In this document: piece after piece, positions 20,421-64,000 of the stretch
Layout: every line of letters starts with the position of its first letter
Position numbering within the stretch: position 1 is the stretch's first letter
Source of the DNA: Pseudomonas purpurea
Lineage (GTDB): Bacteria > Pseudomonadota > Gammaproteobacteria > Pseudomonadales > Pseudomonadaceae
NCBI RefSeq assembly: GCF_039908635.1
Contig: NZ_CP150918.1
Location: 2,356,001-2,420,000 of the forward strand
DNA: 64,000 nt
Direction: 5' to 3'
Notes under the pieces: generated by a model
Seen by the model: the letters and a program-made list of their open reading frames with translations, nothing else
Told to the model about the DNA's origin: nothing
Databases searched by the model: none
Translations under genes and position numbers: made by a program

Positions 20421-20443
20421 GTCGTCATCCTTTGGCTGCTGTT

Positions 20444-21091: not shown

Positions 21092-21092
21092 C

Positions 21093-35781: not shown

Positions 35782-35912
35782 TGGGGGCGATTCCTTGTCG
35801 GGGTATCAGTGACGATGGTGAAGAGGAGGGGCATTAGGGGCATGGGCGTCCTTGCAACCGCTCCAGATCCACCGTGCAGCCGACCAGGGCGACTTCAAGC
35901 CGGTTTTCGGGA

Positions 35913-36332: not shown

Positions 36333-36715
36333 TGTGCCGGGGCCTGTGGGTCGAGGGCTTGCAGGGCGGTTTTTCGCGCCAGCATGTAAGACTCGATTTT
36401 CTCAATGAACTCAGCTTTGCTCCTGGTCCTGAATTCGCCGAGAAAGACCTCCGAGTTCTTGATGACCTTGCACGCCTTGTCATATCGGATGGTCAGGAAA
36501 TCAACGACGAACTCACCGTCAGGGTCGCCTTCTGGTTCGAGCCTGGCGTCGAAACAGTCACCGGTACTGCGCCTGACGCCGCCCAGCAGGACAGAACTGC
36601 TGAACCAATCCGCTGTTTGCGGCGTGAGTTCGACCTCGAACAGGTTGTTGATCGTGATGGTCCAGCCACTTGGGACGCGAAGGGCTTGTAGAGCGTACTT
36701 CAAGGAGGCGGCCAT
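36329..36715 (-). CDS. Hypothetical protein, first gene of a coupled pair
   Basis: 128 aa from ATG 36715. Open frame continues upstream to a TTG at 36796 through a Cys/Ala-rich stretch that looks non-coding, so the internal ATG is preferred although no clear ribosome site precedes it. Contains VPSGWTITINNLFEVELTPQTADWF, then VVDFLTIRYDKACKVIKNSEVFLGEFRTRSKAEFIEKIESYML. Cytoplasmic. Function unknown; overlaps the next gene by four bases. Confidence 0.6.
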   Translation of the reverse strand: MAASLKYALQALRVPSGWTITINNLFEVELTPQTADWFSSSVLLGGVRRSTGDCFDARLEPEGDPDGEFVVDFLTIRYDKACKVIKNSEVFLGEFRTRSKAEFIEKIESYMLARKTALQALDPQAPAQ

Positions 36716-36959
36716 TCTAGGGATGCCCCAAAGTGCTGTGGCGTGAGCGCACGTTGCACAAGTCGCCCTCCCTAAACGATGAGTACTCAAAGGCAAAGTG
36801 GGGTATCAGCGGTTTTATGTGTTCGTTGAAGTAACCGATGTCCATATCGTTTTAAATCGGGTGCCAGGCGGGATGTCTGTCGAGGAGGGGGCTTTTTAGC
36901 ACGAATGGAGATGCGCAGCGAGGGAGAGGGGAAATTGGCGCATTGCCCCGTCTCGCTCG

Positions 36960-37826: not shown

Positions 37827-37961
37827 ATCCCTATCATCCTTGATGTAGACAAATCGCCGAACGGTTAACGGTTGCCAGTCTGAATCCGGGCGCAATCAGT
37901 TCTCCTTGAACGTGACTCGGCACCCTGAATTTGATTTAAGCCGATGCATTTGCCCTACGTC

Positions 37962-40503: not shown

Positions 40504-40650
40504 ATGGAACTTTTTTCTGCAGCCGTTGTGGGCGACGTGATCGCGAAAGGGACTTCTTCAAGCGATCCATGTAGTGAAAAGTCGGCGTGTCCGGCCCTGA
40601 TTTCGAAGCGTTCAGAGGCCAGTCATTCTGCTCGGGGGAACAAGGCATGA
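40504..40650 (+). CDS. 48-aa reading frame coupled to the NRPS start
   Basis: Too short for standard ORF lists. ATG 40504 has an excellent ribosome site (GAGAAGGAT, six bases before it). The frame stays open for 48 codons and ends at TGA 40648-40650, overlapping the NRPS ATG 40647 as ATGA. The N-terminus reads MELFSAAVVGDVIAKG, followed by a Ser/Cys/Lys-rich stretch. No family recognised. The strong ribosome site and exact overlap suggest it is translated and serves as a coupling leader for the giant NRPS, whose own site is weak. A functional peptide is also possible. Confidence 0.55.
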   Translation: MELFSAAVVGDVIAKGTSSSDPCSEKSACPALISKRSEASHSARGNKA

Positions 40651-43600
40651 ATCACACGCTTCTGATCCCGCAGACATTCTCCCTGACCGCAGCCCAGCGC
40701 GATATCTGGCTCGATCAGGTAAGCCGTGGCGACTCGCCGCTCTACAACATCGGTGGATACATTGAAATCAATGGGCATGTGTGTCCTGCGGTGATTCAGC
40801 ATGCGGTCGAGTTGCTGGTGGAAAAACATGACGCCTTGCGCACCGTGCTGCTGGCCGATTCCGGCCCCGACGGCGTACCGCTACAGTCCTTTGCCCACGC
40901 GCTACCGGTCCGGGTTCCGTTGCACGACTTCTCGACGCAGCCCGATCCGCTGGCGGCCGCGCAGGTCTTGATGCAGCAACAGATGGCGTTGCCCTATCCG
41001 CTGGATACCGGCCCCTTGTTCCGCTTTTTCCTGATCAAGCTTGAAGACGAGCATTTCTTCCTGGGTACCCAGGCGCATCACCTCATCCTCGACGGGTGGG
41101 GATTCGGCCAGATGCTGCAGTCTCTGGGGAGTCTCTATAGCGCACTGGAACAGGAAGGCGAGCCTGATCTGTCGGCAGCGTCTTATATCGATTTCATTCA
41201 CGACGATCACCGCTATCACCACTCTGCGCGTTACGCCCGCGACCGGGCTTACTGGCTGGACAAGTACCAGACGGTCCCCGAGCCCTTGTTGGTGCCACGT
41301 TATCGAGACCGCCATGTCGATGGCATTGCACCGAGCAGCACTGTCGTGCGGCCGTTTCCGGTTGTCCTGCACGAGCGAATGGGGCAGTTGGCGAAAACGT
41401 ATCAGGCGTCGCCTTTCCACGTGTTGCTGGCCGCGTTGTATGTCTACTTCACCCGCACGACGCAGCGCGACGAGTGGGTGGTGGGGCTGCCGATCCTCAA
41501 TCGTCCCAACGCCGGGTTCAAGTCCACCCTGGGGTTGTTCACCCAGGTCAGTGCGGTGCGATTGCGCTTCAGCAATGACCTGTCGTTCGGCGAACTGATT
41601 CGTGCGGTGCGCGATGTGCTCAGGCAGGACTTTCGTCATCAGCGCTTCCCCTTGAGCGAGATGAACCGTGCCCTTGGGCTGCTGCGCGATGATCGTGCGC
41701 AGCTGTTTGATCTGTCGGTTTCTTATGAACAGGAGGACCACGATTATCGCTACGGTCAGGCCCTGGCACATTCGGTGAAAGTCTCGAACAACCACGAGCA
41801 AACGCCGCTGACCCTGCACTTGCGCACCAACAGTTACCACGACAAGGCATGGGCCCATTACGTCTACAACGAGGCGTACTTTGAGCGCACCGAGATCGAG
41901 TCGCTGGCCGAACGTTTTACCGGTGTCCTGGAGCAGGGGCTGGAAGCCCCCGATGGGTCTATCCGCCATTTCACCCTGATGACGCCTGCTGAAGCCGAGC
42001 GGCTGCGTCAATGGAACGCGACCGAAAAGGCCTACCCCGGCGACCAGACTCTTCATCAATTGATCGAGGCGCAGGTCGCGGCCCGGCCTCATGCCACGGC
42101 GGTGACGTATGCCGGCCTGACGCTGAGCTACGGCGAATTGAATGCACGCGCCAACCAGGTCGCTCATCGGCTGTTGGCCATGGGGGTTCGCCCCGATGAC
42201 CGGGTGGCAATCTGTGTCGAGCGTGGGCTTGAGATGGTCGTCGGCCTGCTCGGGATTCTCAAGGCGGGTGCCGGTTATGTACCGCTGGACCCGGAGTACC
42301 CGAGCGAACGACTCACCTACATGATCGAAAACAGCGCCCCCACGGTGTTGCTGACGCAACAGGCCTTGCTTGAGCGCCTGAGCCAAACGGCGGCCCCTGT
42401 GCTGCTGCTCGACGCCCAGGGACGCGATGCCGAGGAAATCGGCCGTCAGTCACGCTCCAATCCCGATGTCGGCGGTTTGTCCCACGCAGCCCTGGCCTAC
42501 GTGATCTACACCTCGGGTTCTACGGGGCAGCCCAAGGGTGTGGCCATGCCTCACGGGCCGCTGGTCAATCTGATGCAATGGCAGCTTGATCAGGCGACCC
42601 AACAAGGTCGAGGGGCACAGCGCACGCTGCAATTCGCCGCACTGGGTTTTGATGTGGCGTTCCAGGAGGTGTTCAGCACCCTGTGTGCCGGTGGTGAACT
42701 GTCGATGATCCATGCCGACATCCGGCTGAATTTCCGACACCTGTTCCAGCATATCTGCGAGCACCGCATCGAACGCCTGTATCTGCCGTGCATCGCGCTG
42801 CAAGCGCTGACGGAAACGGTGGTCGGTGACGAGCAGTTGAGTCAATTGCCGTGTGCGTTGGCCGATGTGATTACCGCCGGTGAGCAACTGCGCATCACCG
42901 AACCCATGCGCACCTTCTTCCGGGGTCTGCAAGGTTGTCGCCTGCATAACCACTACGGCCCCACCGAGTCCCACGTGACCACGGCGCTGACGCTTGCGGG
43001 CGACGCGACAGGGTGGCCCGTCCTGCCATCGATCGGGCAGCCAGTGGCCAATACCCGCATCCATCTGCTGGATGAGCAGCTTCAGCCGGTCCCGCCAGGC
43101 GTTGCCGGGGAGATCTACATCGGCGGTGCGTGCGTGGCCCGTGGCTACCTGAACCGCGAAGACCTGACCCGCGAGCGTTTCATCGTCGACCCGTTTGTCG
43201 GCGAAGGTTCGGCGCGTCTGTACCAGTCCGGAGACTTGGGGTGTTACCAGGCCAACGGTGATATCGAGTACCTGGGGCGCAACGACGGCCAGATCAAGAT
43301 CCGTGGTTTTCGTGTCGAACCGGGCGAGGTCGAAGCCCGGTTGGCCCGGCACCCAGGCGTACGCGAAGCGGCGGTGGTGGTTCGCGAAGAGGTCGCGGGT
43401 GACAAGCGATTGGTGGCGTACTTTACGGCGTACCCCGGCCAAGCGTTGCCGGATGTCGATGCATTACGCCGTTACCTGCAAGGCTTGTTGCCGGACTACA
43501 TGATTCCCGCCGCCTATGTGCGGCTCGAAACACTGCCGTTGTCGCCCAATGGCAAGCTTGATCGAAGAGCCCTGCCCATGCCGCAGGCCGAGGCTTTTGT

Positions 43601-46600
43601 CTGCCGCGAATACGAGGCCCCGGTGGGTATCAGGGAAATCACGCTGGCCAGGTTGTGGGCCGAACTGCTGAATGTGGAGCGCGTGGGGCGTCACGACCAC
43701 TTTTTCGAGCTGGGCGGGCACTCGCTGTTGGCGGTGAATCTGATCGAGCGCATGCGTCGGGCCGGGCTGAGTGCTGACGTGCGTGTGCTGTTCACTCAGC
43801 CAACGTTGGCGGCACTGGCGGCCGCGACCGACGGTGGCACGGAAGTCGAAGTGCCGGCCAATCGCATCCCGGTCGATTGCACACGCATTACCCCGGATCA
43901 ACTGTCACTGGCAGAACTGGACCAGGCGTCCATCGATTGCATCGTGGCGACGGTGCCCGGCGGTGCGGCTAACGTGCAGGAGATTTATCCGCTGGCGCCG
44001 TTGCAGGAAGGTCTGCTTTATCACCACCTGAGTGCCGAAGAAAGCGACCCCTATCAGCAACACGCACTGTTCGCCTTTGAGGATGAGGCTCGGCTGCACG
44101 CTTTTGTGCAGGCGTTGCAAGCGGTGGTCTCGCGGCACGACATCCTGCGTACCAGCCTGGTCTGGGAGGGGATCGCGCAGCCCATGCAAGTGGTCTGGCG
44201 CGAGGCCAGGTTGAGTGCTGATCCGATTGCACTGGAGCCTGGGGCCGGGGATATCGTCGAGCAGTTGCGCGAGCGTCTCGATCCGCGTCACTTCGTCCTG
44301 GGTATTCGCCGGGCACCGATGATGCGTGTCTGCTATGCCGAAGACCCGGCAAACACGCGTTGGGTCGGCATGCTGGTGTTCCATCATCTGGTTAACGATG
44401 CGACATCGCTGGGTGTGTTGATCGAGGAGGTCGCGGCTCACATGCAGGGCCGGGAGCAGGATCTGGCGCCACCCGTGCCGTATCGCAACTACGTGGCCCA
44501 GGCGCGGTGGGGCGTCAGCCAGGAGGAACACGAAGCGTTTTTCCGTCAACAGTTGAGCGATGTCGACGAGCCGACGCTGGCGCTCGGTCTGCACCACGAT
44601 CACGGCGATCATGAAGAAGGCCACGCCCTGCTGGAGGCTTCGCTCAGCCAGCGCTTGCGGGGGCAGGCCCGGCAACTGGGCGTCAGTGCCGCGTGTGTGT
44701 GTCACTTGGCCTGGGCTCGGGTCGTCGGTTGCCTGGCGGGCCGCGACGATGTGGTTTTCGGCACCGTGCTGTTGGGGCGCTTGCAGGCCGGTGAAGGGGC
44801 GGATCGCGCCCTGGGCATGTTCATCAATACCTTGCCCCTGCGGGTCAACCTGGGCGAACACAGTGTGCAAGCTGCGGTGAAGGCCACGCACGCACGATTG
44901 AACGCCTTGTTGGCCCACGAACATGCCTCCCTGGCGTTGGCCCAGCGTTGCAGCGGTGTCGCGGCGCCGACGCCGCTGTTCAACACCTTGTTCAACTACC
45001 GTCATGGCGGGGTATCGGATGAGGGGGGCGCATTGCGGGCCTGGCAGGGCATTGAACTGCTGGGCAGCGAGGAGGTTGTCAGCTACCCGCTGATCGTGTC
45101 GGTGGATGACCTGGGTGAAGGATTCAAGTTGAGCGCCGTTGCGCCCAGGGACGTCGGGGCGCAACGGATCCTTGGTTACCTGCATACCGCGCTGCAAGGG
45201 TTGGTCGAGACCCTTGAACATGGCCTGCAAACACCGTTGCACAGCGTGCCGGTTCTTGTGGCGACCGAGCGCCAGCAGGTGCTGTTTGAGCTTAATGCCA
45301 CCGAAACGGATTACCCCTGCGACCAGACGATTCACGCGTTGTTCGAGGCGCAGGTTCGACGCACCCCGGACTCGGTGGCACTGCTGGCCGGTGAACAGCA
45401 ACTGACCTACCGCGAACTCAACGAACGCGCCAATCAACTGGCTCGTCATCTGCGTCAGTTGGGTGTAAAGCCCGATTCACGGGTAGCAATCTGCGTCGAA
45501 CGCGGGCCGGAACTGGTGATCGGCTTGCTGGGGATTCTCAAGGCGGGCGGCGCTTACGTGCCGCTGGACCCCGGCTATCCGCGCGAACGCATTGCTTACA
45601 TGTTGCAGGACAGCGCGCCGGTCGCGGTGTTGGTGCAAGGGACCACTCATGATTTGCTGGATAAGACCACGGTGCCAGTGATCGATCTGGATCACCCGAC
45701 CTGGCAGGCGCAATCCGTCAGCAATCCGCAGGTTCCGGGATTGACCGTCTCGCACCTGGCCTACGTGATCTACACCTCGGGTTCGACCGGCACACCGAAG
45801 GGCGTGATGGTCGAGCATCGCGGGGTCAATAACTTGGTGCACTGGAGTTCCCAGGTGTGCGGGGGCACGCAAGACGCTGCGCTGTTGCAGAAAACCCCGT
45901 TCAGTTTCGATGCCTCGGTCTGGGAGTTCTTCTGGCCGCTCACCACCGGGATGCGCTTGGTGCTGGCCCGTCCTGACGGTCACCGCGAACCGGCCTATAT
46001 GGCGCAGTTGATCCGTGAGCAGCGCATCACGGTGATTCAGTTCGTGCCGGCGATGTTGCAACAATTTCTGGAGCTGGACGAAGTCAGCCAGTGCGTCAGC
46101 CTGACCGACGTGTTCTGTGGCGGTGGTGAACTCACCGCCGCGCTGGCCCGACGGGTTCAGGAACGCTTGCCGCAGGTGCGTTTGCACAACGTTTATGGCC
46201 CCACCGAAGCTACGGTCGACAGCACGGTCTGGACCCTTGAACCGGGCGCGACGATACCGGATGTTCAGTTGCCAATCGGCCGGCCGATTGCCAATACACG
46301 GTTGTACGTGCTGGACGCCCACGACGCGCCGGTGCCGCTGGGTGTGAGCGGACACCTGCATATCGGCGGCGTCGGGGTCACGAGGGGCTATGTGGGCTTG
46401 CCACAATTGACGGCGGAACGCTTCATCGACAGTCCGTTCGTGGCTGGCGACCGGTTGTACCGCACCGGTGATCTGGTGCGCTATCGCCCCGACGGGAACC
46501 TGGAATTTCTCGGTCGCAACGACTTCCAGGTGAAGTTGCGAGGCGTGCGCCTGGAACTGGGCGAAATCGAAGCCCTTCTGGCGGCGCACCCGGCGGTGCG

Positions 46601-55600: not shown

Positions 55601-58600
55601 GGAAGTCTGGCCAGCCTTGTGCGTCGGCGCGACTCTGCACCTGCCGCCTGCACATGACGGCAATGAAGATATTGATGCGCTGCTGAATTGGTGGCGCGCG
55701 CAACCATTGGACGTGAGTTTCCTGCCCACCCCGGTGGCTGAATATGCCTTCAGTCATCACCTGGAACACCCGACCCTGCGCACGCTGCTGGTCGGCGGTG
55801 ATCGCCTGCGGCAGTTCAGCAAGGCCCAGCGTTTCGAGCTGATCAACAACTATGGCCCGACCGAAGCCACCGTCGTGGCGACCTCGGGCCGCATCGAAGT
55901 CGGACAGACGCTGCACATCGGCAAGCCGATGGCCAACGCCAAGGTGTACCTGCTCGACGAGCAGATGCGCCCGGTACCGGTGGGCGTGGCGGGTGAGTTG
56001 TATGTCGGTGGCGCGGGCGTGGCGCGGGGTTATTTGAACCGTCCGGAACTGACCGCCGAGCGTTTCCTCCAAGACCCGTTCAGCAGCGATCCGCAAGCGC
56101 GGATGTACCGCACCGGCGACTTGGCACGTTGGCTGGCGGACGGCACCATCGAGTACCTGGGGCGCAATGACGATCAGGTGAAAATCCGTGGCGTGCGTAT
56201 CGAACTGGGGGAAATCGAAACCAAACTGGCGGCACTGGACGCGGTGAAAGAAGCCGTGGTGCTGGTACGTGACGGCCGACTGGTGGCGTATTTCACCGAA
56301 CACACGCCGTTGGAGATCGAGCAGCTCAGGGCTCAACTGCAAGCGATATTGCCGGACTACATGCTGCCCTCGGCTTATGTGAGGCTGGACAACTTGCCGC
56401 TGACCGCCAACGGAAAACTGGACCGCAAGGCCCTGCCGGACCCGGACCTTGACGCGTTGATCCGTCGTGGCTACGAAGCGCCGCAAGGCGAGGTCGAAAC
56501 CACCCTGGCGCAGATCTGGGCCGAGGTGCTCAAGGTCGAGCGAGTCGGGCGCCATGATCACTTTTTTGAACTGGGCGGGCACTCGCTGCTGGCGGTGAGC
56601 CTGATCGAGTGTATGCGCCAGGCCGGGTTGAGCGCCGACGTGCGGGTGTTGTTCAGCCAACCGACGCTGGCGGCACTGGCCGCTGCGGTGGGCAGTGGTC
56701 GGGAAATCCAGGTTCCGGCGAACCTGATCCCGCCCGGTTGCACACGGATCACCCCGGACCTGTTGCCCCTGGCAGACCTGAATCAGGACGCCATCGACCG
56801 CATCGTCGCCACCGTCCCCGGTGGTGTGGCCAACGTGCAGGACATCTACCCCTTGGCGCCGTTGCAGGAAGGCATCCTTTACCACCACATCACCGCAGAG
56901 CAGGGCGACCCGTACCAGCAACATGCGATGTTCGCCTTTGACAACCGTGAACGGTTGGACGCGTTTGTTCGGGCGTTGCAAGGGGTGATTGCCCGGCACG
57001 ACATCTTGCGCACCAGTCTGGTTTGGGACCGTCTCGAAGTGCCGATGCAAGTGGTCTGGCGCAAGGCTGAGCTAACGATGCAGGAAGTGGCGCTGGACCC
57101 GGCGGCGGGCGATACCGTGGATCAGTTGCGTGAGCGCTTCGACCCGCGTCGTTACCGTCTGGATCTGCGTCAGGCACCGATGATGTTCATGGTGTATGCC
57201 CAGGACCCAGGGAACAACCGCTGGGTCGGCATGCTGGTGTTCCATCACCTGGTCAACGATGCGACTTCCATGGGTGTTCTGGTCGCAGAAATCGAAGCGC
57301 ACGTGTTGGGGCAGGCGCACCACTTGGCGCCCCCGATGCCGTACCGCAACTACGTGGCCCAAACCCGTTTGGGCACCCACCGGAAAGAGCACGAGGCGTT
57401 TTTCCGCGAGATGCTGGGGGACATCGACGAGCCGACGCTGGCGTTTGGTGTGCAGTCCGGCAGTGGCATTTACGAGGAGCGCGAGCACCTGCTGGATGCC
57501 TCGTTCAGTCGGCGCCTGCGCGTGCAGGCCCGGCGATTGGGGGTGAGTGCGGCGAGCCTGTATCACCTGGCCTGGGCGCACGTGCTGGGAAGTGTCTCGG
57601 GCCGCGACGACGTGGTCTTCGGCACGGTACTGCTGGGCCGTTTGCAGGCCGGTGAAGGGGCTGATCGCACGCTGGGCATGTTCATCAATACCTTGCCGCT
57701 GCGGGTCAATCCGGGCGAGCACAACGTACAGGCTGCGGTCAAAGCGACCCACGTGCGCTTGAGTGCCTTGCTGGCTCACGAGCATGCGCCGCTGACGCTG
57801 GCGCAGCGGTGCAGTGGGGTTGCGGCACCGACGCCGTTGTTCAATGCCTTGCTCAACTATCGCCATGGTGCGCAGTCCAGCGGTGATCAGGCGCAGCGGG
57901 CCTGGCAAGGTATTGAAATACTGGGCCGCGACGGCAACGCAAGTTACCCGTTGATCCTGTCGGTGGATGACCTGGGAGACGACTTCAGATTAGGCGCCCA
58001 GACCCTCGTCGAGATAGGCGCACAACGAGTGATTGGCTACATGCAGGTCGCGTTGGAGGGGCTGCTCGAAGCCCTCGAACACAACCCGCAACAGTCGTTG
58101 CAAGGGTTGCCGGTATTGCCTGCGCAGGAACGCAATCAGTTGCTGGTGGACTTCAACGTCACCGACGTCGATTTCCCTCTTGAGCAGACCCTTCACGGTC
58201 TGTTCGAGGCGCAGGTCTTGCGGACGCCGGATGCGTCTGCGGTGCTTTTCGGTGAACAACGCCTGACCTACCACGACCTCAACAAACGTGCCAACCAGTT
58301 GGCGCATCACTTGAGCGAACTGGGGGTTCAGCCGGATTCACGGGTAGCAATCTGCGTCGAACGCGGGCCGGAACTGGTGATCGGCTTGCTGGGGATTCTC
58401 AAGGCGGGCGGCGCTTACGTGCCGCTGGACCCCGGCTATCCGCGCGAACGCATTGCTTACATGTTGCAGGACAGCGCGCCGGTCGCGGTGTTGGTGCAAG
58501 GGACCACTCATGATTTGCTGGATAAGACCACGGTGCCAGTGATCGATCTGGATCACCCGACCTGGCAGGCGCAATCCGTCAGCAATCCGCAGGTTCCGGG

Positions 58601-60002
58601 ATTGACCGCCTCGCACCTGGCCTACGTGATCTACACCTCGGGTTCGACCGGCACACCGAAGGGCGTGATGGTCGAGCATCGCGGGGTCAATAACCTGGTG
58701 CACTGGAGTTCCCAGGTGTGCGGGGGCACGCAGGACGCTGCGCTGTTGCAGAAAACCCCGTTCAGTTTTGATGCCTCGGTCTGGGAGTTCTTCTGGTCGC
58801 TCACCACCGGGATGCGGTTGGTGCTGGCCCGTCCTGACGGTCACCGCGAACCGGCCTATATGGCGCAGTTGATCCGTGAGCAGCGCATCACGGTGATTCA
58901 GTTCGTGCCGGCGATGTTGCAACAATTTCTGGAGCTGGACGAAGTCAGTCAGTGCGTCAGCCTGACCGACGTGTTCTGCGGCGGTGGTGAACTCACCGCC
59001 GCGCTGGCCCGACGGGTTCAGGAACGCTTGCCGCAGGTGCGTTTGCACAACGTTTATGGCCCCACCGAAGCTACGGTCGACAGCACGGTCTGGACCCTTG
59101 AACCGGGCGCGACGATACCGGATGTTCAGTTGCCAATCGGCCGGCCGATTGCCAACACACGGCTGTACGTGCTGGACGCCCACGATGTGCCGGTGCCCAT
59201 CGGCGTGACAGGGCACCTGCATATCGGCGGCGTCGGCGTCGCGAGGGGTTATGTGGGGTTGGCGCAACTGACGGCCGAGCGGTTCATCAGCGACCCGTTC
59301 AGCCAGGATTCGCAGGCACGGATGTACCGCACCGGCGACAGGGTGCGCTACCGCGCGGACGGCAACCTCGAGTACCTGGGACGAACCGATGATCAGGTGA
59401 AAATCCGTGGCTTGCGAATCGAACCGGGTGAAATCCAGGCGTGCCTGAGTCAGTTCCCCGAGGTGCAAGAAGCGCTGGTGCTGGCCCGCGAGGACATGCC
59501 GGGCGACATGCGTCTGGTGGCGTATTACACCACCCGGACAGCGGGAGACAGTGTGGCCATCGACACCTTGCGCAGCCACTTGCTGGAGCAGATGCCGGAC
59601 TACATGGTGCCATCGGTGTTCGTGCATCTTGATGCATGGCCACTGAGCCCCAACGGCAAACTGGATCGCAAGGCGTTGCCAGCGCCGGGCCAAGAGTCGG
59701 TGATCGCCCGGGGCTACGAAGCGCCGGTGGGGGAAACCGAAACCACCCTGGCTCGGCTCTGGGCCGAGCTGCTCAACGTGGAGCGAGTGGGGCGGCATGA
59801 CCACTTCTTCGAGTTGGGCGGGCACTCGTTGCTGGCGGTCAGCCTGGCCGAACGCATGCGCAAGCAAGGGCTGGATGCTGATCTTCGGGCCTTGCTCAGG
59901 CAGCCGACGCTGGCGCAGATGGCCGACGCCGTGGGGCATGTGCAACGGCTGGCGGTTCCCGAGACCACGATTCCAACGCTCAGCCGCAAACGTCGTCTCT
60001 GA
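40647..60002 (+). CDS. Six-module lipopeptide NRPS, predicted acyl-Pro-Gln-Ser-Leu-Leu-Gln
   Basis: 6451 aa. Starter-type condensation domain (HHLILDG, ~144), then A-T and five C-A-T units. A3 core TSGSTG near 622, 1710, 2786, 3871, 4936, 5997; carrier serines (GGHSLL) near 1026, 2100, 3183, 4248, 5313, 6394. Internal C domains (His motifs near 1246, 2320, 3403, 4468, 5533) begin with ITPD...IDRIVATVPGG, typical of dual condensation/epimerisation domains; no separate E domains and no thioesterase. Hand-read A-domain codes: DVQYIAHV (Pro), DAWQFGVV (Gln/Glu), DVWHMSLV (Ser), DAWFLGNV (Leu), DAWFLGNV (Leu), DAWQFGVV (Gln/Glu). ATG 40647 is preferred over GTG 40587. Ends in a basic tail (LSRKRRL). 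Product passes to the NRPS at 60327. Confidence 0.92.
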   Translation: MNHTLLIPQTFSLTAAQRDIWLDQVSRGDSPLYNIGGYIEINGHVCPAVIQHAVELLVEKHDALRTVLLADSGPDGVPLQSFAHALPVRVPLHDFSTQPDPLAAAQVLMQQQMALPYPLDTGPLFRFFLIKLEDEHFFLGTQAHHLILDGWGFGQMLQSLGSLYSALEQEGEPDLSAASYIDFIHDDHRYHHSARYARDRAYWLDKYQTVPEPLLVPRYRDRHVDGIAPSSTVVRPFPVVLHERMGQLAKTYQASPFHVLLAALYVYFTRTTQRDEWVVGLPILNRPNAGFKSTLGLFTQVSAVRLRFSNDLSFGELIRAVRDVLRQDFRHQRFPLSEMNRALGLLRDDRAQLFDLSVSYEQEDHDYRYGQALAHSVKVSNNHEQTPLTLHLRTNSYHDKAWAHYVYNEAYFERTEIESLAERFTGVLEQGLEAPDGSIRHFTLMTPAEAERLRQWNATEKAYPGDQTLHQLIEAQVAARPHATAVTYAGLTLSYGELNARANQVAHRLLAMGVRPDDRVAICVERGLEMVVGLLGILKAGAGYVPLDPEYPSERLTYMIENSAPTVLLTQQALLERLSQTAAPVLLLDAQGRDAEEIGRQSRSNPDVGGLSHAALAYVIYTSGSTGQPKGVAMPHGPLVNLMQWQLDQATQQGRGAQRTLQFAALGFDVAFQEVFSTLCAGGELSMIHADIRLNFRHLFQHICEHRIERLYLPCIALQALTETVVGDEQLSQLPCALADVITAGEQLRITEPMRTFFRGLQGCRLHNHYGPTESHVTTALTLAGDATGWPVLPSIGQPVANTRIHLLDEQLQPVPPGVAGEIYIGGACVARGYLNREDLTRERFIVDPFVGEGSARLYQSGDLGCYQANGDIEYLGRNDGQIKIRGFRVEPGEVEARLARHPGVREAAVVVREEVAGDKRLVAYFTAYPGQALPDVDALRRYLQGLLPDYMIPAAYVRLETLPLSPNGKLDRRALPMPQAEAFVCREYEAPVGIREITLARLWAELLNVERVGRHDHFFELGGHSLLAVNLIERMRRAGLSADVRVLFTQPTLAALAAATDGGTEVEVPANRIPVDCTRITPDQLSLAELDQASIDCIVATVPGGAANVQEIYPLAPLQEGLLYHHLSAEESDPYQQHALFAFEDEARLHAFVQALQAVVSRHDILRTSLVWEGIAQPMQVVWREARLSADPIALEPGAGDIVEQLRERLDPRHFVLGIRRAPMMRVCYAEDPANTRWVGMLVFHHLVNDATSLGVLIEEVAAHMQGREQDLAPPVPYRNYVAQARWGVSQEEHEAFFRQQLSDVDEPTLALGLHHDHGDHEEGHALLEASLSQRLRGQARQLGVSAACVCHLAWARVVGCLAGRDDVVFGTVLLGRLQAGEGADRALGMFINTLPLRVNLGEHSVQAAVKATHARLNALLAHEHASLALAQRCSGVAAPTPLFNTLFNYRHGGVSDEGGALRAWQGIELLGSEEVVSYPLIVSVDDLGEGFKLSAVAPRDVGAQRILGYLHTALQGLVETLEHGLQTPLHSVPVLVATERQQVLFELNATETDYPCDQTIHALFEAQVRRTPDSVALLAGEQQLTYRELNERANQLARHLRQLGVKPDSRVAICVERGPELVIGLLGILKAGGAYVPLDPGYPRERIAYMLQDSAPVAVLVQGTTHDLLDKTTVPVIDLDHPTWQAQSVSNPQVPGLTVSHLAYVIYTSGSTGTPKGVMVEHRGVNNLVHWSSQVCGGTQDAALLQKTPFSFDASVWEFFWPLTTGMRLVLARPDGHREPAYMAQLIREQRITVIQFVPAMLQQFLELDEVSQCVSLTDVFCGGGELTAALARRVQERLPQVRLHNVYGPTEATVDSTVWTLEPGATIPDVQLPIGRPIANTRLYVLDAHDAPVPLGVSGHLHIGGVGVTRGYVGLPQLTAERFIDSPFVAGDRLYRTGDLVRYRPDGNLEFLGRNDFQVKLRGVRLELGEIEALLAAHPAVREAVVLARDERLVAYFTPRVAGQIPAIEALRAHLLAQLPEHMVPAAYVHLDALPLSPNGKLDRRALPAPDQDALMTRRYEAPQGEVETVLAQIWADVLKVERVGRHDHFFELGGHSLLAVSLIERMRQAGLSADVRVLFGQPTLAALAAAVGGGREIDVPVNRIPFGCTHITPDLLPLADLDQAAIDRIVATVPGGVGNVQDIYPLAPLQAGILYHHLSVTQGDPYVLQVQFAFDNDERLEAFAQALQAVIERHDILRTAMTWESLDEPVQVVWRQAPLGREAVESDPKAGDVLTRLHARFDPRHYRLDITQAPLMRLVHARDEANQRVVAVLLFHHMVMDHVALEVLQHEIGVGLLGQQSLLGEAVPYRNYVAQTRLGISEQEHEMFFREMLGDVDEPTLPFGLQDVQGDGSGIEEATQRVPADVSQRLRAQARVLGVSAASLFHLAWAQVLAGVSGKEHVVFGTVMLGRMQGGEGTEQALGLFINTLPLRIDVGAQGARAGVEAIHARLTALLGHEHAPLVLAQRCSGVVAPSPLFSALLNYRHSATDTIHHHHAWHGIELLSAEERTNYPLTLNVDDLGDGFNLNAMTVARIGAQRICGYVQTALESLVEALEQDSPVALNRLPMLPAAERRYLVFDLNATDVDYPLNQTIHGLFESQVQRTPDAPAVLAGEQRLTYRELNQRANQLAHHLRLQGVGPDSRVAICVERGLDMVVGLLAILKAGGGYVPLDPAYPLERIAYMLHDSAPAAVLVQGTTRELLGEVAVPVIDLDHPTWQAQSVSNPQVPALTPAHLVYVIYTSGSTGQPKGVINEHGAVVNRLLWMQDEYRLTSADAVLQKTPFSFDVSVWEFFWPLFTGARLVMARPEGHKDPAYLCEVIHAEQITTLHFVPSMLDVFLAHGDVSQCAGLKRVMCSGEALPGSLVRRFKVQLPGSELHNLYGPTEAAVDVTAWNCAGPLELTPDNTPIGKPIANTRLYLLDGQLQPVPQGVVGELYIGGVQVARGYLHRPELTAERFLNDPFSSVNNARMYRTGDVARYLADGNIEYLGRNDDQVKIRGLRIELGEIQARLTQFPEVKEAVVLAREDVPGDKRLVAYYTTQASAEALNIETLRSHLLEHLPEYMVPSVFVHLDALPLSPNGKLDRKALPAPGLGAMIMRGYEAPQGDVETTLAQIWAELLKVERVGRHDHFFELGGHSLLAVSLIERMRRGGLSADVRVLFGQPTLAALAAAVGSGREIRVPANLIPPGCERITPELLPLADLNQAAIDRIVATVPGGTANVQDIYPLAPLQAGILYHHLSVTQGDPYVMQVQFAFDNEQRLEAFAQALQAVIGRHDILRTAMVWENLDQPVQVVWRQAPLGREAVEPDLKAGDVLAQLHARFDPRHYRLDITQAPLMRLVHARDEARQRVVAMLLFHHLVMDHVALDVLQHEIRAFLLGQQARLGEAVAYRNYVAQTRLGISEQEHETFFREMLGDVDEPTLPFGLQDVQGDGSDIEEVSQPVQRDLGQRLRAQARTLGVSAASLFHLAWAQVLAGVSGKASVVFGTVLLGRMQGGEGAEHALGMFINTLPLRVDIDETGVEAGVRATHARLTALLGHEHASLALAQRCSGVAAPAPLFSALLNYRHSAVAHDSAEHRSAWQGIEVLSAQERTNYPLTLSVDDRGEDFGLTAMAVSSIGARRICGYMHTALEHLVHALAQTPQVALNHLSILPLAERQQLLVDFNTTHVDYPQGLTIHQRVEAQAAKHPQAMAAFYQGQSLSYGQLNQQANQLAHHLRDLGVQPDDRVAIVARRGLDTLVGLLAILKSGACYVPIDPSHPAERLSYLLSDSGPVAVLTQQDLLARLPVLDVPVIELDRNRWQDQPITNPQVAGLTPAHLAYVIYTSGSTGLPKGVMVEHRTLENLVNWHCDVFNLHHGSHTSSVAGFGFDAMAWEVWPALCVGATLHLPPAHDGNEDIDALLNWWRAQPLDVSFLPTPVAEYAFSQDLEHPTLRTLLVGGDRLRQFSKAQRFALINNYGPTEATVVATSGRIEAGQTLHIGKPMANAKVYLLDEQMRPVPVGVAGELYVGGAGVARGYLNRPQMTAEHFLKDPFSDDPQARMYRTGDLARWLADGNIEYLGRNDDQVKIRGMRIELGEIEAKLTALESVKEAVVMVRDGRLVAYFTEHTPLEIEQLRTQLQATLPDYMLPSAYVKLEFLPLTANGKLDRKALPAPDQASMLSRGYEAPQGEVETTLAQIWAEVLKVERVGRHDHFFELGGHSLLAVSLIERMRQAGLSADVRVLFSQPTLAALAAAVGGYREVIVPANRITPDCERITPDLLPLADLNQDAIDRIVATVPGGAANVQDIYPLAPLQEGILYHHITAEQGDPYLLQSKMAFDSLERLQAFAQALQKVIERHDILRTGVVWEGLQQPMQVVWCQAELTVQEVLLDPAAGDILGQLHARFDARHYRLEVTQAPLIRMMFACDQANQRVVAVLLFHHMALDHTTMEVVGQEMRAYLFDQAESLGPAVPYRNYVAQARLGVSEQDHEMFFREMLSDIDEPTLPFGLQDVQGDGNDIEEATQPVPAALNLRVRAQARQLGVSAASVFHLAWAQVLSQVSNRQEVVFGTVLMGRMQGGEGADRALGMFINTLPLRVNLGETGVQAGVKATHARLTALLGHEHASLALAQRCSGVAAPSPLFSALLNYRHSVVDEPAQDGQDMWEGIESLGGDERTNYPLTLSVDDLGNGFSLTVLAVPHAGAQRMCGYMQAALASLIDALEQTPQVALNHLSILPPAERRQLLVDFNATRVDYPHGETVHAVFEAQVVRIPDALAVCQGEQHLTYRELNQCANQLAHYLRDLGVQPDDRVAIVARRGLDTLVGLLAILKSGACYVPVDPSHPAERLSYLLSDSGPVAVLTQQDLLARLPVLAVPVIELDRNRWQDQPITNPQVAGLTPAHLAYVIYTSGSTGLPKGVMVEHHTLENLVNWHCDAFNLHHGSHTSSVAGFGFDAMAWEVWPALCVGATLHLPPAHDGNEDIDALLNWWRAQPLDVSFLPTPVAEYAFSHHLEHPTLRTLLVGGDRLRQFSKAQRFELINNYGPTEATVVATSGRIEVGQTLHIGKPMANAKVYLLDEQMRPVPVGVAGELYVGGAGVARGYLNRPELTAERFLQDPFSSDPQARMYRTGDLARWLADGTIEYLGRNDDQVKIRGVRIELGEIETKLAALDAVKEAVVLVRDGRLVAYFTEHTPLEIEQLRAQLQAILPDYMLPSAYVRLDNLPLTANGKLDRKALPDPDLDALIRRGYEAPQGEVETTLAQIWAEVLKVERVGRHDHFFELGGHSLLAVSLIECMRQAGLSADVRVLFSQPTLAALAAAVGSGREIQVPANLIPPGCTRITPDLLPLADLNQDAIDRIVATVPGGVANVQDIYPLAPLQEGILYHHITAEQGDPYQQHAMFAFDNRERLDAFVRALQGVIARHDILRTSLVWDRLEVPMQVVWRKAELTMQEVALDPAAGDTVDQLRERFDPRRYRLDLRQAPMMFMVYAQDPGNNRWVGMLVFHHLVNDATSMGVLVAEIEAHVLGQAHHLAPPMPYRNYVAQTRLGTHRKEHEAFFREMLGDIDEPTLAFGVQSGSGIYEEREHLLDASFSRRLRVQARRLGVSAASLYHLAWAHVLGSVSGRDDVVFGTVLLGRLQAGEGADRTLGMFINTLPLRVNPGEHNVQAAVKATHVRLSALLAHEHAPLTLAQRCSGVAAPTPLFNALLNYRHGAQSSGDQAQRAWQGIEILGRDGNASYPLILSVDDLGDDFRLGAQTLVEIGAQRVIGYMQVALEGLLEALEHNPQQSLQGLPVLPAQERNQLLVDFNVTDVDFPLEQTLHGLFEAQVLRTPDASAVLFGEQRLTYHDLNKRANQLAHHLSELGVQPDSRVAICVERGPELVIGLLGILKAGGAYVPLDPGYPRERIAYMLQDSAPVAVLVQGTTHDLLDKTTVPVIDLDHPTWQAQSVSNPQVPGLTASHLAYVIYTSGSTGTPKGVMVEHRGVNNLVHWSSQVCGGTQDAALLQKTPFSFDASVWEFFWSLTTGMRLVLARPDGHREPAYMAQLIREQRITVIQFVPAMLQQFLELDEVSQCVSLTDVFCGGGELTAALARRVQERLPQVRLHNVYGPTEATVDSTVWTLEPGATIPDVQLPIGRPIANTRLYVLDAHDVPVPIGVTGHLHIGGVGVARGYVGLAQLTAERFISDPFSQDSQARMYRTGDRVRYRADGNLEYLGRTDDQVKIRGLRIEPGEIQACLSQFPEVQEALVLAREDMPGDMRLVAYYTTRTAGDSVAIDTLRSHLLEQMPDYMVPSVFVHLDAWPLSPNGKLDRKALPAPGQESVIARGYEAPVGETETTLARLWAELLNVERVGRHDHFFELGGHSLLAVSLAERMRKQGLDADLRALLRQPTLAQMADAVGHVQRLAVPETTIPTLSRKRRL
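45474..46334 (+). repeat. A-domain core of module 2, near-identical to module 6
   Basis: Compared by eye with 58335-59195 (constant offset 12861): only about ten base differences in ~861, while the flanks diverge sharply on both sides. It covers the A-domain core with all specificity residues. Confidence 0.85.
51923..53300 (+). repeat. Module 4 A domain, tandem duplicate of module 5
   Basis: Aligns with 55118-56495 (offset 3195, one module length) at high identity but with many more silent differences than the module 2/6 pair. Both carry the same Leu code. The right boundary is approximate. Confidence 0.7.
55118..56495 (+). repeat. Module 5 A domain, tandem duplicate of module 4
   Basis: Partner of 51923-53300. 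The duplication fits a whole-module tandem copy that has since drifted. The right boundary is approximate. Confidence 0.7.
58335..59195 (+). repeat. A-domain core of module 6, near-identical to module 2
   Basis: Partner of 45474-46334. The identity begins within the A-domain N-terminal part (GATTCACGGGTAGC) and stops near YVLDAHD, i.e. inside the protein domain rather than at module borders. Confidence 0.85.
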
Positions 60003-60326
60003 CCTCGAAACTTCGATCTGTCCACCAGGGCGCCGGCCATTTGGCCGGCGCCCCACGGGCTGACTCGCCTCCTGCAAGGCCTTCGGGCTTGTCCCGACTT
60101 CCCATGTCAGCCACGCCTGCCGGGATGTTTTAGTTTTCCAGACCTGCGGGGGAGCTCTTGCGGGCTCAATGCGCCCCATCACTTTTGAACAGGGCGGCCA
60201 GGCCGGCGTTCAGGTTTTCGCATCGCCAGGGACCACACGGCGCTGCCGTTCGACGTTCGGGCACAACGTTGCATCTGAAACCGGATTTTCACGTCAACCG
60301 TTTCCGAATTTAAAGCAGGTTACTCA
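60003..60326 (+). promoter_or_regulatory. Gap between the two NRPS genes
   Basis: 324 bp, unusually long for consecutive NRPS genes of one assembly line. Contains a perfect 11-bp hairpin (60028-60038 with 60043-60053, loop ATTT) without a T-run, and at 60270-60289 (minus strand) a core CCGGTTTCAG similar to the boxes upstream. It may carry a second promoter. No coding sequence seen. Confidence 0.5.
60028..60053 (+). terminator. GC-rich hairpin after the first NRPS
   Basis: 11-bp perfect stem, four-base loop, 25 bases after the stop codon. No T-run, so read-through into the second NRPS is plausible. Confidence 0.5.
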
Positions 60327-63300
60327 ATGCAATTCAGCGAATTGATGGCAGTTATTTCAACCTACCCGATCCGTCTTCAACTGGAAGATGATGATTTGGT
60401 CATCCTGGGCGACGACGAGGCACTGGATGACGCGTTGTGGGACAGCCTGACCAAACACAAAGCTGAATTGCTCGCCCTGGTGGCGAGAAACGGTGGCGAT
60501 TGGCTGAGCCCGGCCTATCGGATTACCCCGGACATGCTGCCGCTGGTGAGCCTGGATCAACAGGCCATCGATCGAATTGTCGCCCACGTGCCCGGCGGCG
60601 CGGCCAACGTTCAGGATATTTACCCGTTGGCGCCGTTGCAGGCAGGCATGCTCTACCACCATCTCTCGGCAGAGCAGGGTGACCCCTACGTGCAACAGTC
60701 GCAGTTCGCCTTCGACAGCCGCGAGCGTCTGGAGACGTTTGCCCAGGCGCTGCAATGGGTGATCGATCGCCATGACATCCTCAGGACGTCAATGGTCTGG
60801 GAAGGCCTGGACGAACCGGTGCAAGTGGTCTTGCGCCAGGCGCGGCTGGTGCGTGAAGAACTCGAACTGGCCCCGGCTGGCGGTGATGTCCTGGCGCAGT
60901 TGCGGGCTCGTTTCGATGCTCGGCATTACCGTCTGGATGTGCGTCAGGCGCCGATGCTGCGTCTGGTGTTCGCGCGGGACGAGGTCCGTCAGCGGGTGGT
61001 CGCCATCCTGTTGTTTCACCACATGGCACTGGACCATACCGCTCTGGAAGTGGTGAGCCACGAAATGCAGGCGTATTTGCGGGGTCAGGCGGATCAGTTG
61101 AGCCCGGCCGTACCGTTTCGCAACTATGTTGCCCAAACCCGTCTCGGGACCCGCGAGCAGGAACACGAAGCGTTCTTCCGCCAGATGCTCGGCGATATCG
61201 ATGAACCGACCCTGCCGTTTGGGTTGAGCGATGTGCAGGGCGACGGTCATGGCGTCGAGGAGGCGGGCGTCAGCGTTGACAGCGTTTTGAGCCAGCGGCT
61301 GCGGGCACAGGCCCGACAGCTTGGGGTCAGTGCGGCGAGCCTGATGCACCAGGCGTTTGCCCAGGTGTTGGGCAAGGTTTCCGGGCGTAAGTCCGTGGTC
61401 TTCGGCACGGTCCTGCTAGGCCGGATGGAGGCTGGCGAGGGCTCCGACCGGGCGCTGGGGATGTTCATCAACACCTTGCCGCTGCGCGTGGACGTGGGGG
61501 AGCAAGGCGTACGCGCAGCCTTGAAGCAGACCCATGTGCAATTGACCGCGTTGTTGGGGTATGAACATGCCTCGCTGGCCCTGGCGCAACGTTGCAGCGC
61601 AGTCATCGCGCCAACGCCGCTGTTCAGTTCGCTGCTCAATTACCGGCACAGCCAGGTGGCGGTCGGTGCCGACACGGCAGTGGAGTGGGAAGGCATCCAG
61701 GGGCTGGGTGCCGAGGAACGGACCAACTATCCGCTGACCGTGAACGTGGACGATCTGGGGGAGGATTTTCGCATCACCGTGTTGGTCGACACCTCGATTG
61801 GCGCGCAGCGTGTCGGCGACTACCTGAGCACCGCGCTGGAGAGTCTGGTGCAGGCACTGGAAGCAACGCCGGAGGCACCGCTGCAAACGCTGAACATTCT
61901 GCCGGCTGCCGAACGCCAACACCTGCTGAACACGTTGAACGCCCCGCAGGTTTGCTACGTCGACACGGAGCTGATCCATAGCCGGGTCGAAGCCCGGGCC
62001 GCGGCCCGGCCTGATGCCACGGCAGTGCTGTATGAAGACCTGAACCTGACTTACGGACAACTCAACGCCCGCGCCAATCAGGTGGCACATCGACTGCTGG
62101 CCCTGGGCATTCGCCCCGATGACCGGGTGGCAATCTGTGTCGAGCGGGGCCTGGAAATGGTCGTCGGTTTGCTGGGGATTCTCAAGGCTGGCGCCGGTTA
62201 CGTGCCCATCGACCCGGCCTCACCGGTCGAGCGCATTGCCTACACCTTGCAAGACAGCGCTCCGGTTGCGCTGCTGTTGCAGACCGCGACTCAAAGCCTG
62301 GCCGCCAGCGTGTCCGTGCCGGTGATCGACCTCGACAGCGACACGTTGCAGGACGAGTCCGCAGCCAACCCGCATGTCCCGGAGCTGAGCGCTTCGAACC
62401 TTGCCTACGTGATCTACACGTCCGGTTCCACGGGGCTGCCCAAAGGCGTGATGGTCGAGCACCGCAACGTGGCGCGGCTGTTTTCGGCGACTCAGGGCTG
62501 GTTTGATTTCAATCAGCAGGATGTGTGGGCCTTGTTCCACTCATTTGCCTTTGACTTCTCGGTCTGGGAAATCTGGGGGGCCTTGACCTACGGCGGTCAG
62601 TTGCTGGTGGTGCCGCAACTCATCAGCCGTTCGCCGGACGAATGCTACGCGCTGCTGTGCACCGCTGGCGTAAGCATTCTCAACCAGACCCCGAGTGCGT
62701 TCCGTCAACTCATTGCGGCCCAGGGCCACAGTCAACTCAAGCATTCCTTGCGTCAGGTCATCTTCGGTGGCGAAGCCCTGGAGCCGGGGGTTCTCAAACC
62801 CTGGTATGCCCGCGTTGCCAATGCCGGCACGCAACTGGTGAACATGTACGGCATCACTGAAACCACGGTGCACGTGACTTATCGGGCGCTGGAGGTGGCG
62901 GATGCGCACCGGGTGGGTGTCAGCCCGATTGGCGGGCAGATTCCGGATTTGCAGCTGTACGTGCTCGATGACCGGCGTGAACCGGTCCCGGTCGGTGTCG
63001 TCGGTGAGTTGTACGTCGGCGGCGCGGGAGTTGCCCGGGGTTATCTGAACCGCGAGGAACTGACGGCCGAGCGTTTTATTACCGACCCGTTCAGTGGCCG
63101 CGGCAACGCCCGCTTGTACAGGACGGGCGATCTGGGGCGCTGGACGGCGGACGGCAGTCTGGAGTACCTGGGCCGCAACGACGATCAAGTGAAAATCCGT
63201 GGTTTCCGTATCGAACTGGGTGAGGTCGAAGCCCGTCTTTCGGCCTGCAACGGCGTGCGCGAAGCGGTGGTGATCGCTCGCGAAGACGAACCGGGAGACC

Positions 63301-64000
63301 AGCGCCTGGTGGCCTACGTGATTGCCGGCGAGGGTGTCGAGCTGAGCGCGGCCGGGCTGCGTGAGCAACTGCTGGTGTCGCTTGCCGAGTACATGGTGCC
63401 GAGCGCGTTCGTGATGCTTGAAGCCTTCGCGCTGACTACCAACGGCAAGCTGGATCGCAAGGCGCTGCCGGTGCCGGACACGGATGCGGTTGCCCGGCGC
63501 ACCTACGAAGCGCCGCAGGGCGAGGTGGAGATCGCCCTTGCCGCCCTCTGGCAGGACTTGCTCAAACTTGAGCAAGTCGGTCGCGATGACCACTTTTTCG
63601 AGCTGGGCGGGCATTCGTTGTTGGCGGTCAAATTGATCGGACGCATGCGTCAGGTTGACCTGTACGCAGACGTGCGGGTGTTGTTCAACCAACCGACCCT
63701 GGCGGCGTTGGCCAGTGCGGTGGGGGGGCGCCGCCAGGAAATCGAGGTGCCTGCCCGTGGCGTTCCCCACGGATGCGAGCACCTTACCCCGGACATGTTG
63801 CCCCTGGCAGACCTGGACCAAGGCGCGATAGACCGGATCGTTGCGAGCGTGCCGGGCGGCGCACGCAATGTGCAGGAAATCTACGCCTTGGCGCCGTTGC
63901 AGGAAGGTATTTTGTATCACCACCTGGCGGCGGCCCACGGCGATCCCTACCTGCAATACGTCACGTTTTCGTTCGACAGCCGTGAACATCTTCAAGGATT
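60327..64000 (+). CDS. Second lipopeptide NRPS (3' end outside window), first module predicted Thr
   Basis: 1224 codons to the window edge. Residues 1-~50 form a TubC-like docking domain (MQFSELMAVISTYPIRLQLE, then an acidic stretch DDDLVILGDDEALDD and a helix). Then a dual-type C domain (RITPDMLPL...IDRIVAHVPGG; HHMALDH near 231), A domain (TSGSTG near 698, YGITE near 841), carrier serine near 1097, and the start of the next dual-type C domain. The A code by eye is DFWNIGMVH, the classic Thr code; dehydrobutyrine is possible. ATG 60327 has AGGTT upstream. Continues the assembly line of the first NRPS. Confidence 0.9.
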   Translation, partial: MQFSELMAVISTYPIRLQLEDDDLVILGDDEALDDALWDSLTKHKAELLALVARNGGDWLSPAYRITPDMLPLVSLDQQAIDRIVAHVPGGAANVQDIYPLAPLQAGMLYHHLSAEQGDPYVQQSQFAFDSRERLETFAQALQWVIDRHDILRTSMVWEGLDEPVQVVLRQARLVREELELAPAGGDVLAQLRARFDARHYRLDVRQAPMLRLVFARDEVRQRVVAILLFHHMALDHTALEVVSHEMQAYLRGQADQLSPAVPFRNYVAQTRLGTREQEHEAFFRQMLGDIDEPTLPFGLSDVQGDGHGVEEAGVSVDSVLSQRLRAQARQLGVSAASLMHQAFAQVLGKVSGRKSVVFGTVLLGRMEAGEGSDRALGMFINTLPLRVDVGEQGVRAALKQTHVQLTALLGYEHASLALAQRCSAVIAPTPLFSSLLNYRHSQVAVGADTAVEWEGIQGLGAEERTNYPLTVNVDDLGEDFRITVLVDTSIGAQRVGDYLSTALESLVQALEATPEAPLQTLNILPAAERQHLLNTLNAPQVCYVDTELIHSRVEARAAARPDATAVLYEDLNLTYGQLNARANQVAHRLLALGIRPDDRVAICVERGLEMVVGLLGILKAGAGYVPIDPASPVERIAYTLQDSAPVALLLQTATQSLAASVSVPVIDLDSDTLQDESAANPHVPELSASNLAYVIYTSGSTGLPKGVMVEHRNVARLFSATQGWFDFNQQDVWALFHSFAFDFSVWEIWGALTYGGQLLVVPQLISRSPDECYALLCTAGVSILNQTPSAFRQLIAAQGHSQLKHSLRQVIFGGEALEPGVLKPWYARVANAGTQLVNMYGITETTVHVTYRALEVADAHRVGVSPIGGQIPDLQLYVLDDRREPVPVGVVGELYVGGAGVARGYLNREELTAERFITDPFSGRGNARLYRTGDLGRWTADGSLEYLGRNDDQVKIRGFRIELGEVEARLSACNGVREAVVIAREDEPGDQRLVAYVIAGEGVELSAAGLREQLLVSLAEYMVPSAFVMLEAFALTTNGKLDRKALPVPDTDAVARRTYEAPQGEVEIALAALWQDLLKLEQVGRDDHFFELGGHSLLAVKLIGRMRQVDLYADVRVLFNQPTLAALASAVGGRRQEIEVPARGVPHGCEHLTPDMLPLADLDQGAIDRIVASVPGGARNVQEIYALAPLQEGILYHHLAAAHGDPYLQYVTFSFDSREHLQG

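Follow-up and report, generated by a model that had tools for sequence, protein, structure and literature searches.

Which peptide would be assembled by a lipopeptide synthetase whose starter condensation domain stands directly beside a proline-type domain? The question is raised by a 64,000-nucleotide stretch of Pseudomonas purpurea DNA (assembly GCF_039908635.1, contig NZ_CP150918.1, positions 2,356,001 to 2,420,000 of the forward strand; the whole stretch is called the window below), whose right-hand part encodes a six-module non-ribosomal peptide synthetase (NRPS-A) and the beginning of a second one (NRPS-B). The window starts at position 2356001 of a 5.93 Mb genome, the relatives of which by sequence are Pseudomonas. 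Its rpoD reaches at most 93% identity with the copies of 70 other congeners and of 22 genomes found by way of loci. We find it probable that the locus, together with its right flank, is a 13-module lipopeptide synthetase with its own regulators and exporters, built for a proline-first lipopeptide. Within the literature searched, the likely product appears to be undescribed.

Thirteen modules and their predicted substrates

NRPS-A lies in an open reading frame (ORF) at 40587-60002 (+; coordinates are those of the window unless given as genome positions), starts at the ATG at 40647 and has 6451 amino acids in six modules, each with a condensation (C), an adenylation (A) and a carrier (T) domain. 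NRPS-B starts at 60327 with a Thr module, and its second module extends past the window edge at 64000. The preliminary description of the window had proposed to look to the right for the remaining modules and a thioesterase. In the right flank, fetched from the genome, both were found: the flank adds six residues, Asp/Glu-Leu-Val-Gln-Val-Leu, and tandem thioesterase domains (TE-TE), and the NRPS region ends at genome position 2440996. The whole region has 13 copies each of the C, A and T domains, making 13 modules in total, and ends with two thioesterase domains; the A3 and A10 motifs, the C3-His and GGHSL are present in all 13. The features of the locus are as follows.

37020..37895, minus strand: LuxR-type regulator (GerE domain; PF00196 over the cut-off), upstream of the cluster and divergent to it
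38465..40168, plus strand: SyrD-type cyclic-peptide exporter of the ATP-binding cassette class, 567 amino acids (TIGR01194, 830.8 bits; cut-off 286.2)
40647..60002, plus strand: NRPS-A, 6451 amino acids, six modules predicted to load Pro-Gln-Ser-Leu-Leu-Gln (domain search and A-domain codes)
40671..42005, plus strand: lipo-initiation (starter) C domain of module 1, HHLILDG intact (PF00668; groups with first-module C domains)
42087..43640 (approximate limits), plus strand: A domain of module 1, DVQYIAHVT, predicted Pro (code and homology)
43974..45227, plus strand: C domain of module 2, dual epimerization/condensation (E/C) type with a variant N-terminal motif; module predicted to load Gln
47196..48449, plus strand: C domain of module 3, dual E/C; predicted Ser
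50445..51767, plus strand: C domain of module 4, dual E/C; predicted Leu
53640..54962, plus strand: C domain of module 5, dual E/C; predicted Leu
56835..58145, plus strand: C domain of module 6, dual E/C; predicted Gln
60327..64000, plus strand: first part of NRPS-B, with an N-terminal docking-like segment, module 7 (predicted Thr) and the start of module 8 (predicted Asp/Glu)
Genome 2420001-2440996 (L009, L010): remainder of NRPS-B and terminator, modules 8-13 and TE-TE, followed by pleA-, pleB- and second luxR-type genes

Substrates were predicted from the nine signature positions of the A domains, extracted by alignment and motif, and positional controls were computed; the GrsA numbering of these positions and the residue meanings of the codes are those we take to be correct. 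In NRPS-A the codes are DVQYIAHVT (module 1), DAWQFGVVD (modules 2 and 6), DVWHMSLVD (module 3) and DAW(F)LGNVV (modules 4 and 5), and module 7, in NRPS-B, has DFWNIGMVH (Thr). Beyond the window, module 8 has DGWKFGVVD (Asp/Glu), and modules 9 to 13 are predicted to load Leu, Val, Gln, Val and Leu, before TE-TE. For the first seven modules, codes and controls agree with the order Pro-Gln-Ser-Leu-Leu-Gln-Thr that had previously been read by eye.

Syringopeptin has Pro at position 2. Tolaasin has D-Pro there (PMC12948218), and P. costantinii LMG 22119 is listed among the producers of tolaasin F (PMC8788793). Module 2 of P. costantinii (tolaasin-type) has the code DVQFIAHVT, and that of P. palleroniana has DVQYIAHVT, the same as our module 1. 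More generally, module 2 of the tolaasin-type synthetases in L011-L013, L022-L024 and P0019 carries DVQ(Y/F)IAHV(T/V), the form in P0019, a protein named SypA, being DVQYIAHVV.

Viscosinamide has Gln at position 2. P. palleroniana is reported to make it (PMC9948697), and the second A domain of genome G157, which we took as P. palleroniana, is DGWQFGVVD, with Gln at signature position 278 (Q278). Three other initiator NRPSs have DGWKLGVVD or DSWKLGVVD at the same place, with K278; by the published Leu-Glx/Asp initiator rule (Glx, Gln or Glu), and not by a named product, they would load Asp/Glu. If Q278 is taken as Gln and K278 as an acidic residue, module 8, most of which lies outside the window, is more likely to load Asp/Glu than Gln. 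Gln at position 8 was considered, and rejected on the K278 control and by the amphisin-like terminal NRPS P0132, which ends with Gln-Leu-Ile-DGWKFGVVD.

A starter domain beside a proline domain

Loading of Pro by module 1 is supported by its code, by homology and by the starter type of its C domain (C1). The best matches of the module 1 A domain (A1) are the module-2 Pro domains of Pseudomonas tolaasin- and peptin-like synthetases, at 72-74% identity for the best and about 66-72% for most. C1, in turn, is 69% identical to the starter C domain of a Ser-first cluster in comparison genome G362, and 25-27% identical to the internal C domains of that cluster; among the surveyed genomes, its identity to Leu-first starters is 64-65%, and to starters of clusters beginning with dehydrobutyrine (Dhb) about 61% or less. 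In a tree of 65 first-module C domains, C1 falls into a clade of tolaasin-type, Leu-first and Ser-first starters (support 93/100), grouping with the first-module C domains of tolaasin- and acidilin-type NRPSs. Its exact sister is uncertain (82/42), the grouping being with Leu-first and Ser-first, not tolaasin, starters. The genome itself holds one starter C match at E <= 1e-60.

A sliding comparison of the protein with two Dhb-Pro proteins places a switch within module 1: the first 440 residues are module-1-like, and nearly all segments from about residue 560 on are module-2-like, except that, for one of these proteins, the last segment is at least as close to module 1. In one segment near the specificity core, identity was 31% to module 1 and 82-85% to module 2. 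We infer that the starter module is a mosaic, in which a starter C domain nearest to that of the Ser-first cluster is joined to a Pro A domain that stems from the Dhb-Pro lineage of tolaasins and peptins. We also considered whether a tolaasin-type line had simply lost one Dhb module; this is partly supported only, as C1 groups, weakly (82/42), with Leu- and Ser-first starters.

We surveyed 398 genomes of the genus, our own included. A homologue of the A1 core (E <= 1e-60; 63-76% identical, counted by homology and not by codes read one by one) is held by 25 other genomes. In 23 of them a starter C domain begins 4743-4818 bp upstream, which makes the Pro-type domain module 2; in the remaining two (G006, G079) the contig is broken and placement is impossible. 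The corresponding distance in our genome is 1533 bp. The survey fits the earlier statement that known Pro-containing Pseudomonas lipopeptides place Dhb before Pro.

When the first 500 residues were searched against 5.8 billion proteins, 847 candidates were scored, of which 743 passed. Among the best 120 of these 743, the top non-self identity was 67%, and a Pro-type A domain comes first in five proteins: our own, P0013 of Burkholderia perseverans, P0092 of Xenorhabdus, and two proteins given without an organism, P0027 and P0061. The codes of P0013 are those of its relative P0010 (Thr-Pro) minus the first, and its likeness switches from module 1 to module 2 at about residues 600-640, inside the A domain. 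P0013 resembles P0010 with one module removed within the A domains, which brings the starter C domain beside Pro.

Empedopeptin from Massilia, 3-OH-acyl-D-Pro1-..., likewise has a Cstarter domain in module 1 and two TE domains (PMC8069584). It resembles our system in the loading of Pro1 by Cstarter, in D-Pro formation via a dual C/E domain and in the tandem TE (PMC8069584), and differs in having eight residues and an unrelated sequence. The Cstarter-Pro1 arrangement can also be seen in the sequence of Duganella sacchari locus L045, where the starter C domain is 29% and the Pro A domain 55% identical to ours. Since empedopeptin and the Burkholderia protein show such an arrangement, acylation of Pro by the starter C domain is, by analogy, credible. 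The preliminary description had called the direct loading of Pro by a starter C domain unusual, which holds for Pseudomonas, but the arrangement is not unprecedented.

Relation to known lipopeptide systems

The locus has the general features of Pseudomonas cyclic lipopeptide clusters, with a lipo-initiation C domain first, a tandem TE last, LuxR regulators and pleAB genes, and is a new variation within this familiar class of bacterial lipopeptides rather than a system of another kind. By starter and plan, the nearest cluster found is the Ser-first system of G362 (probably Pseudomonas sp. N3-W), itself apparently undescribed. Both have three enzymes, with a multimodular initiator, Thr first in NRPS-B and a two-module TE-TE terminator, and share the docking segment and C-terminal tails; C1 (69%), C7 (71%) and C12 (69%) each find their best match at the same place. 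The G362 cluster differs in having 11 modules, Ser-Ser-Leu-Ile-acid / Thr-Leu-Leu-acid / Leu-Ile, distributed [5-4-2] over its three enzymes, two LCL-type C domains, an NRPS-B of 4357 amino acids in a single continuous frame, and no SyrD-type gene in the stretch searched. Speaking against close kinship, the remaining C domains mostly lack one-to-one counterparts there, and the TE (66%) and the start of NRPS-B (73%) are equally close to other clusters. A starter C domain nearly identical to that of G362 occurs in Pseudomonas sp. 681 (the G362 loci being L113, L115, L116 and L117), and we found no paper joining 'lipopeptide' with Pseudomonas sp. N3-W or Pseudomonas sp. 681.

The Tolaasin family (tolaasin, sessilin) shares with our cluster a SyrD-type exporter upstream (78-80%), a Pro A domain of the same group, there in module 2, and, among published features, the tandem TE and pleAB. 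However, its peptides have 18 residues starting with Dhb-Pro, in contrast to our 13 modules with Pro1 and no Dhb. Our cluster has no modules for diaminobutyrate (Dab), homoserine or Lys, its PleB is 83% identical to a tolaasin-linked copy, and no Dab aminotransferase, a Tolaasin feature, was seen in the six downstream frames scanned, one short frame lying outside the scan. The Peptins (the syringopeptin, fuscopeptin and corpeptin group) also have a Pro A domain of the same group and a SyrD-type exporter, but have 19-25 residues, Dhb1-Pro2 and a hydrophobic tail, whereas our predicted peptide has 13, starts with Pro1 and is rich in Gln, Ser and Thr.

Thirteen residues are also found in Asplenin and in the LP13a-d lipotridecapeptides. 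Known lipotridecapeptides have the module distribution [2-7-4] or [1-8-4] (PMC9948697), in contrast to our [6-5-2], and by the published general rule they would start with Leu-Glx, as opposed to Pro-Gln. The [1-8-4] plan reported for P. gingeri LP13a has a likeness in genome G044 (L114, L118-L120), with a mono-modular initiator of acidic-type code. Viscosin and other acidilins have Thr first in NRPS-B as the latch, and the viscosin ring (9:7) is of seven residues, as is the ring predicted here; PleB in many Leu-first genomes is 85-87% identical to ours. The acidilins (Viscosin, Amphisin, Bananamide, Xantholysin and others), however, use a dimodular Leu1-Glx/Asp2 initiator instead of a hexamodular one starting with Pro-Gln.

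Among SyrD-type proteins, ours has 78-80% identity to the copies from six genomes whose starters are tolaasin-type (L011-L013, L022-L024), and 69-74% to the other sixteen copies compared. In pairwise comparisons, PleB has 85-87% identity to the copies of many Leu-first genomes, 83% to the copy on the tolaasin-linked SyrD contig of G410, 86% to the other copy of G410, 85% to a copy in a P. fuscovaginae genome and about 80-81% to several peptin-like copies that go with Dhb-first starters. PleB was therefore not decisive as a family marker, high identity being spread over several kinds of cluster with labels inferred from codes or contigs. Likewise, neither the start of NRPS-B, with its docking segment and C domain (71-73% for the best matches), nor the TE pair (66-68%) could serve as a marker of kinship, both being equally close to several clusters.

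No known Pseudomonas family tested fits on length, opening residues and module plan together, which agrees with the earlier claim that the peptide matches no known family: for each of them, length, first residues or module distribution fails. Neither a Pro-first Pseudomonas lipopeptide nor our residue sequence was found in the literature searched, which consisted mainly of titles and abstracts, supplementary tables such as Table S4L of PMC9948697 being outside it. Pseudomonas lipopeptides are of interest for biocontrol, as surfactants and, for some species, as virulence factors; their families are sorted by length, ring size and first residues. We lean towards a new family of proline-first lipotridecapeptides (13:7) made by a [6-5-2] line, in which a starter C domain with a Pro domain of Dhb-Pro lineage opens a hexamodular initiator replacing the dimodular Leu-Glx one. 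Our line breaks both the Leu-Glx and the Dhb-Pro opening rules and mixes parts of the Tolaasin/Peptin and acidilin groups. If the proposal is true, the exocyclic tail can grow via the initiator enzyme, contrary to the acidilin pattern, in which extension is invariably inside NRPS-B, and SyrD-type export also serves peptides that lack Dhb and Dab. The line further offers a specific, testable product with predicted masses, and a natural case in which a starter C domain would take a secondary amine as its acceptor, useful for NRPS engineering.

Predicted product, frame breaks and surroundings

The proposed pathway builds on what is seen in the sequence: the order of the modules and their A-domain codes, a C1 of starter type, dual-type domains from C2 to C13, TE-TE, and genes for regulators and exporters on both flanks. 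The starter C domain would acylate Pro, probably with a 3-hydroxy fatty acid, and three enzymes, originally [6-5-2], would assemble acyl-Pro-Gln-Ser-Leu-Leu-Gln-Thr-(Glu/Asp)-Leu-Val-Gln-Val-Leu, with dual E/C domains giving the D form at most or all of positions 1-12. Release by the tandem thioesterase would most likely close a lactone on Thr7 (13:7, the viscosin ring size). SyrD-type and PleAB exporters would carry out the product, which may be a surfactant or act on membranes. The acyl chain, the stereochemistry, the place of ring closure, the activity and production itself are predicted from the genes. For the lactone with a 3-OH-C10 chain, the calculated [M+H]+ is 1619.962 with Glu8 and 1605.946 with Asp8, shifted by plus or minus 28.03 for C12 or C8 chains; the b ions calculated for acyl-Pro-Gln-Ser-Leu are 268.191, 396.249, 483.281 and 596.365.

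C2-C13 align with the dual E/C type, 10 of the 12 matching the motif exactly and C2 and C9 being variant, and no LCL-type C domain was seen among them, in contrast to the two in the G362 cluster. With every dual E/C domain active, the first twelve residues would be in the D form and Leu13 in the L form. In core acidilins NRPS-B begins with the ring-closing residue (PMC12948218). As our NRPS-B begins with Thr7, this suggests, by analogy, ring closure at Thr7 and a 13:7 lactone.

Several points weigh against this picture. The product is derived from sequence and not from chemistry, and the Thr7 ring rests on the latch-residue rule of the core acidilin families. Dual E/C domains are sometimes idle (PMC12948218), which makes the D/L pattern uncertain. 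The automatic alignment misread position 278 in the Leu domains, where the value was corrected by eye, and the mosaic origin is weak for C1, since its exact sister is unsure. The frame is also broken at two places: inside carrier domain 8 (genome about 2422874-2423271), ORF2 and ORF3 overlap in different registers, and at carrier domain 11 (genome about 2432500) ORF3 ends early. With these two breaks the line as sequenced would stop after module 8, and its function is uncertain. The module distribution is [6-2-3-2] as sequenced and [6-5-2] by homology; the latter is likely the original plan because the Ser-first relative has one continuous NRPS-B.

Were both breaks true mutations, the cluster would be real but dead or damaged, giving no full-length product and perhaps truncated lipo-octapeptides. 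The continuous NRPS-B of G362 speaks for this reading, as do the breaks themselves, but the A3, A10, C3-His and GGHSL motifs kept in all 13 modules speak against long decay. The frame breaks are perhaps assembly errors in repeats: they sit in carrier domains, of which the line has 13 near-identical copies, and exact repeats as long as 1943 bp occur in the cluster, neither break falling within the longest of them. That longest repeat is shared by modules 10 and 12, which have identical A domains (genome 2427623 and 2434295), and is a sign of recent duplication or gene conversion. We regard a dead cluster as rather unlikely, though worth keeping in mind; it overlaps with our preferred reading, which concerns what the line was built to make. 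In another NRPS locus (genome 3824425-3825300; L121, probably pyoverdine-like by its size), a C domain matches only positions 7-316 of 456, a possible further frame break that may or may not be a similar error.

Assembly could also have erred at the start of NRPS-A, if a true Dhb module between the starter C and Pro A domains had been lost from a Dhb-Pro lipopeptide synthetase. The Pro domain is indeed module 2 in 23 of the 25 comparable genomes, repeats in NRPS genes are easily misassembled and C1 may have ties to Dhb-first starters. However, a collapse requires long near-identical repeats, whereas our module 1 matches the modules of Dhb-Pro proteins very unequally near the specificity core; C1 is closer to Ser-first and Leu-first than to Dhb-first starters, and the frame 40587-60002 is open throughout. 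We consider such an artefact very unlikely. Slightly less probable still is membership of a described family (Tolaasin, Peptin, Asplenin/LP13, Viscosin or others) with a drifted A1: the SyrD-type gene, the 13 residues shared with asplenin and the identity of PleB to copies in Leu-first genomes are offset by the failure of each family on length, first residues or module distribution. Equally improbable is a substrate other than Pro for module 1, such as pipecolate, or a mixture of residues; codes are predictive only, but both the code and the A domain match Pro domains of synthetases with Pro2 products.

The surroundings of this proline-first line are close to those of the usual Pseudomonas lipopeptide cluster (PMC9948697), with LuxR- and SyrD-type genes upstream and PleA-, PleB- and second LuxR-type genes downstream, except that a pleC-type gene was not found in the frames scanned. 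A pleC gene next to the upstream regulator is typical of such clusters (PMC9948697); no OprM-type domain was seen in the six frames scanned between 33686 and 37895. Small frames at 34636-36796 (-), beside the upstream luxR and where pleC would be expected, have no Pfam match over the cut-off. To the left of the lipopeptide genes, the genes at 17782-24303 (-) have domains of UDP-sugar dehydrogenase, epimerase and Wzz type and may form a polysaccharide cluster.

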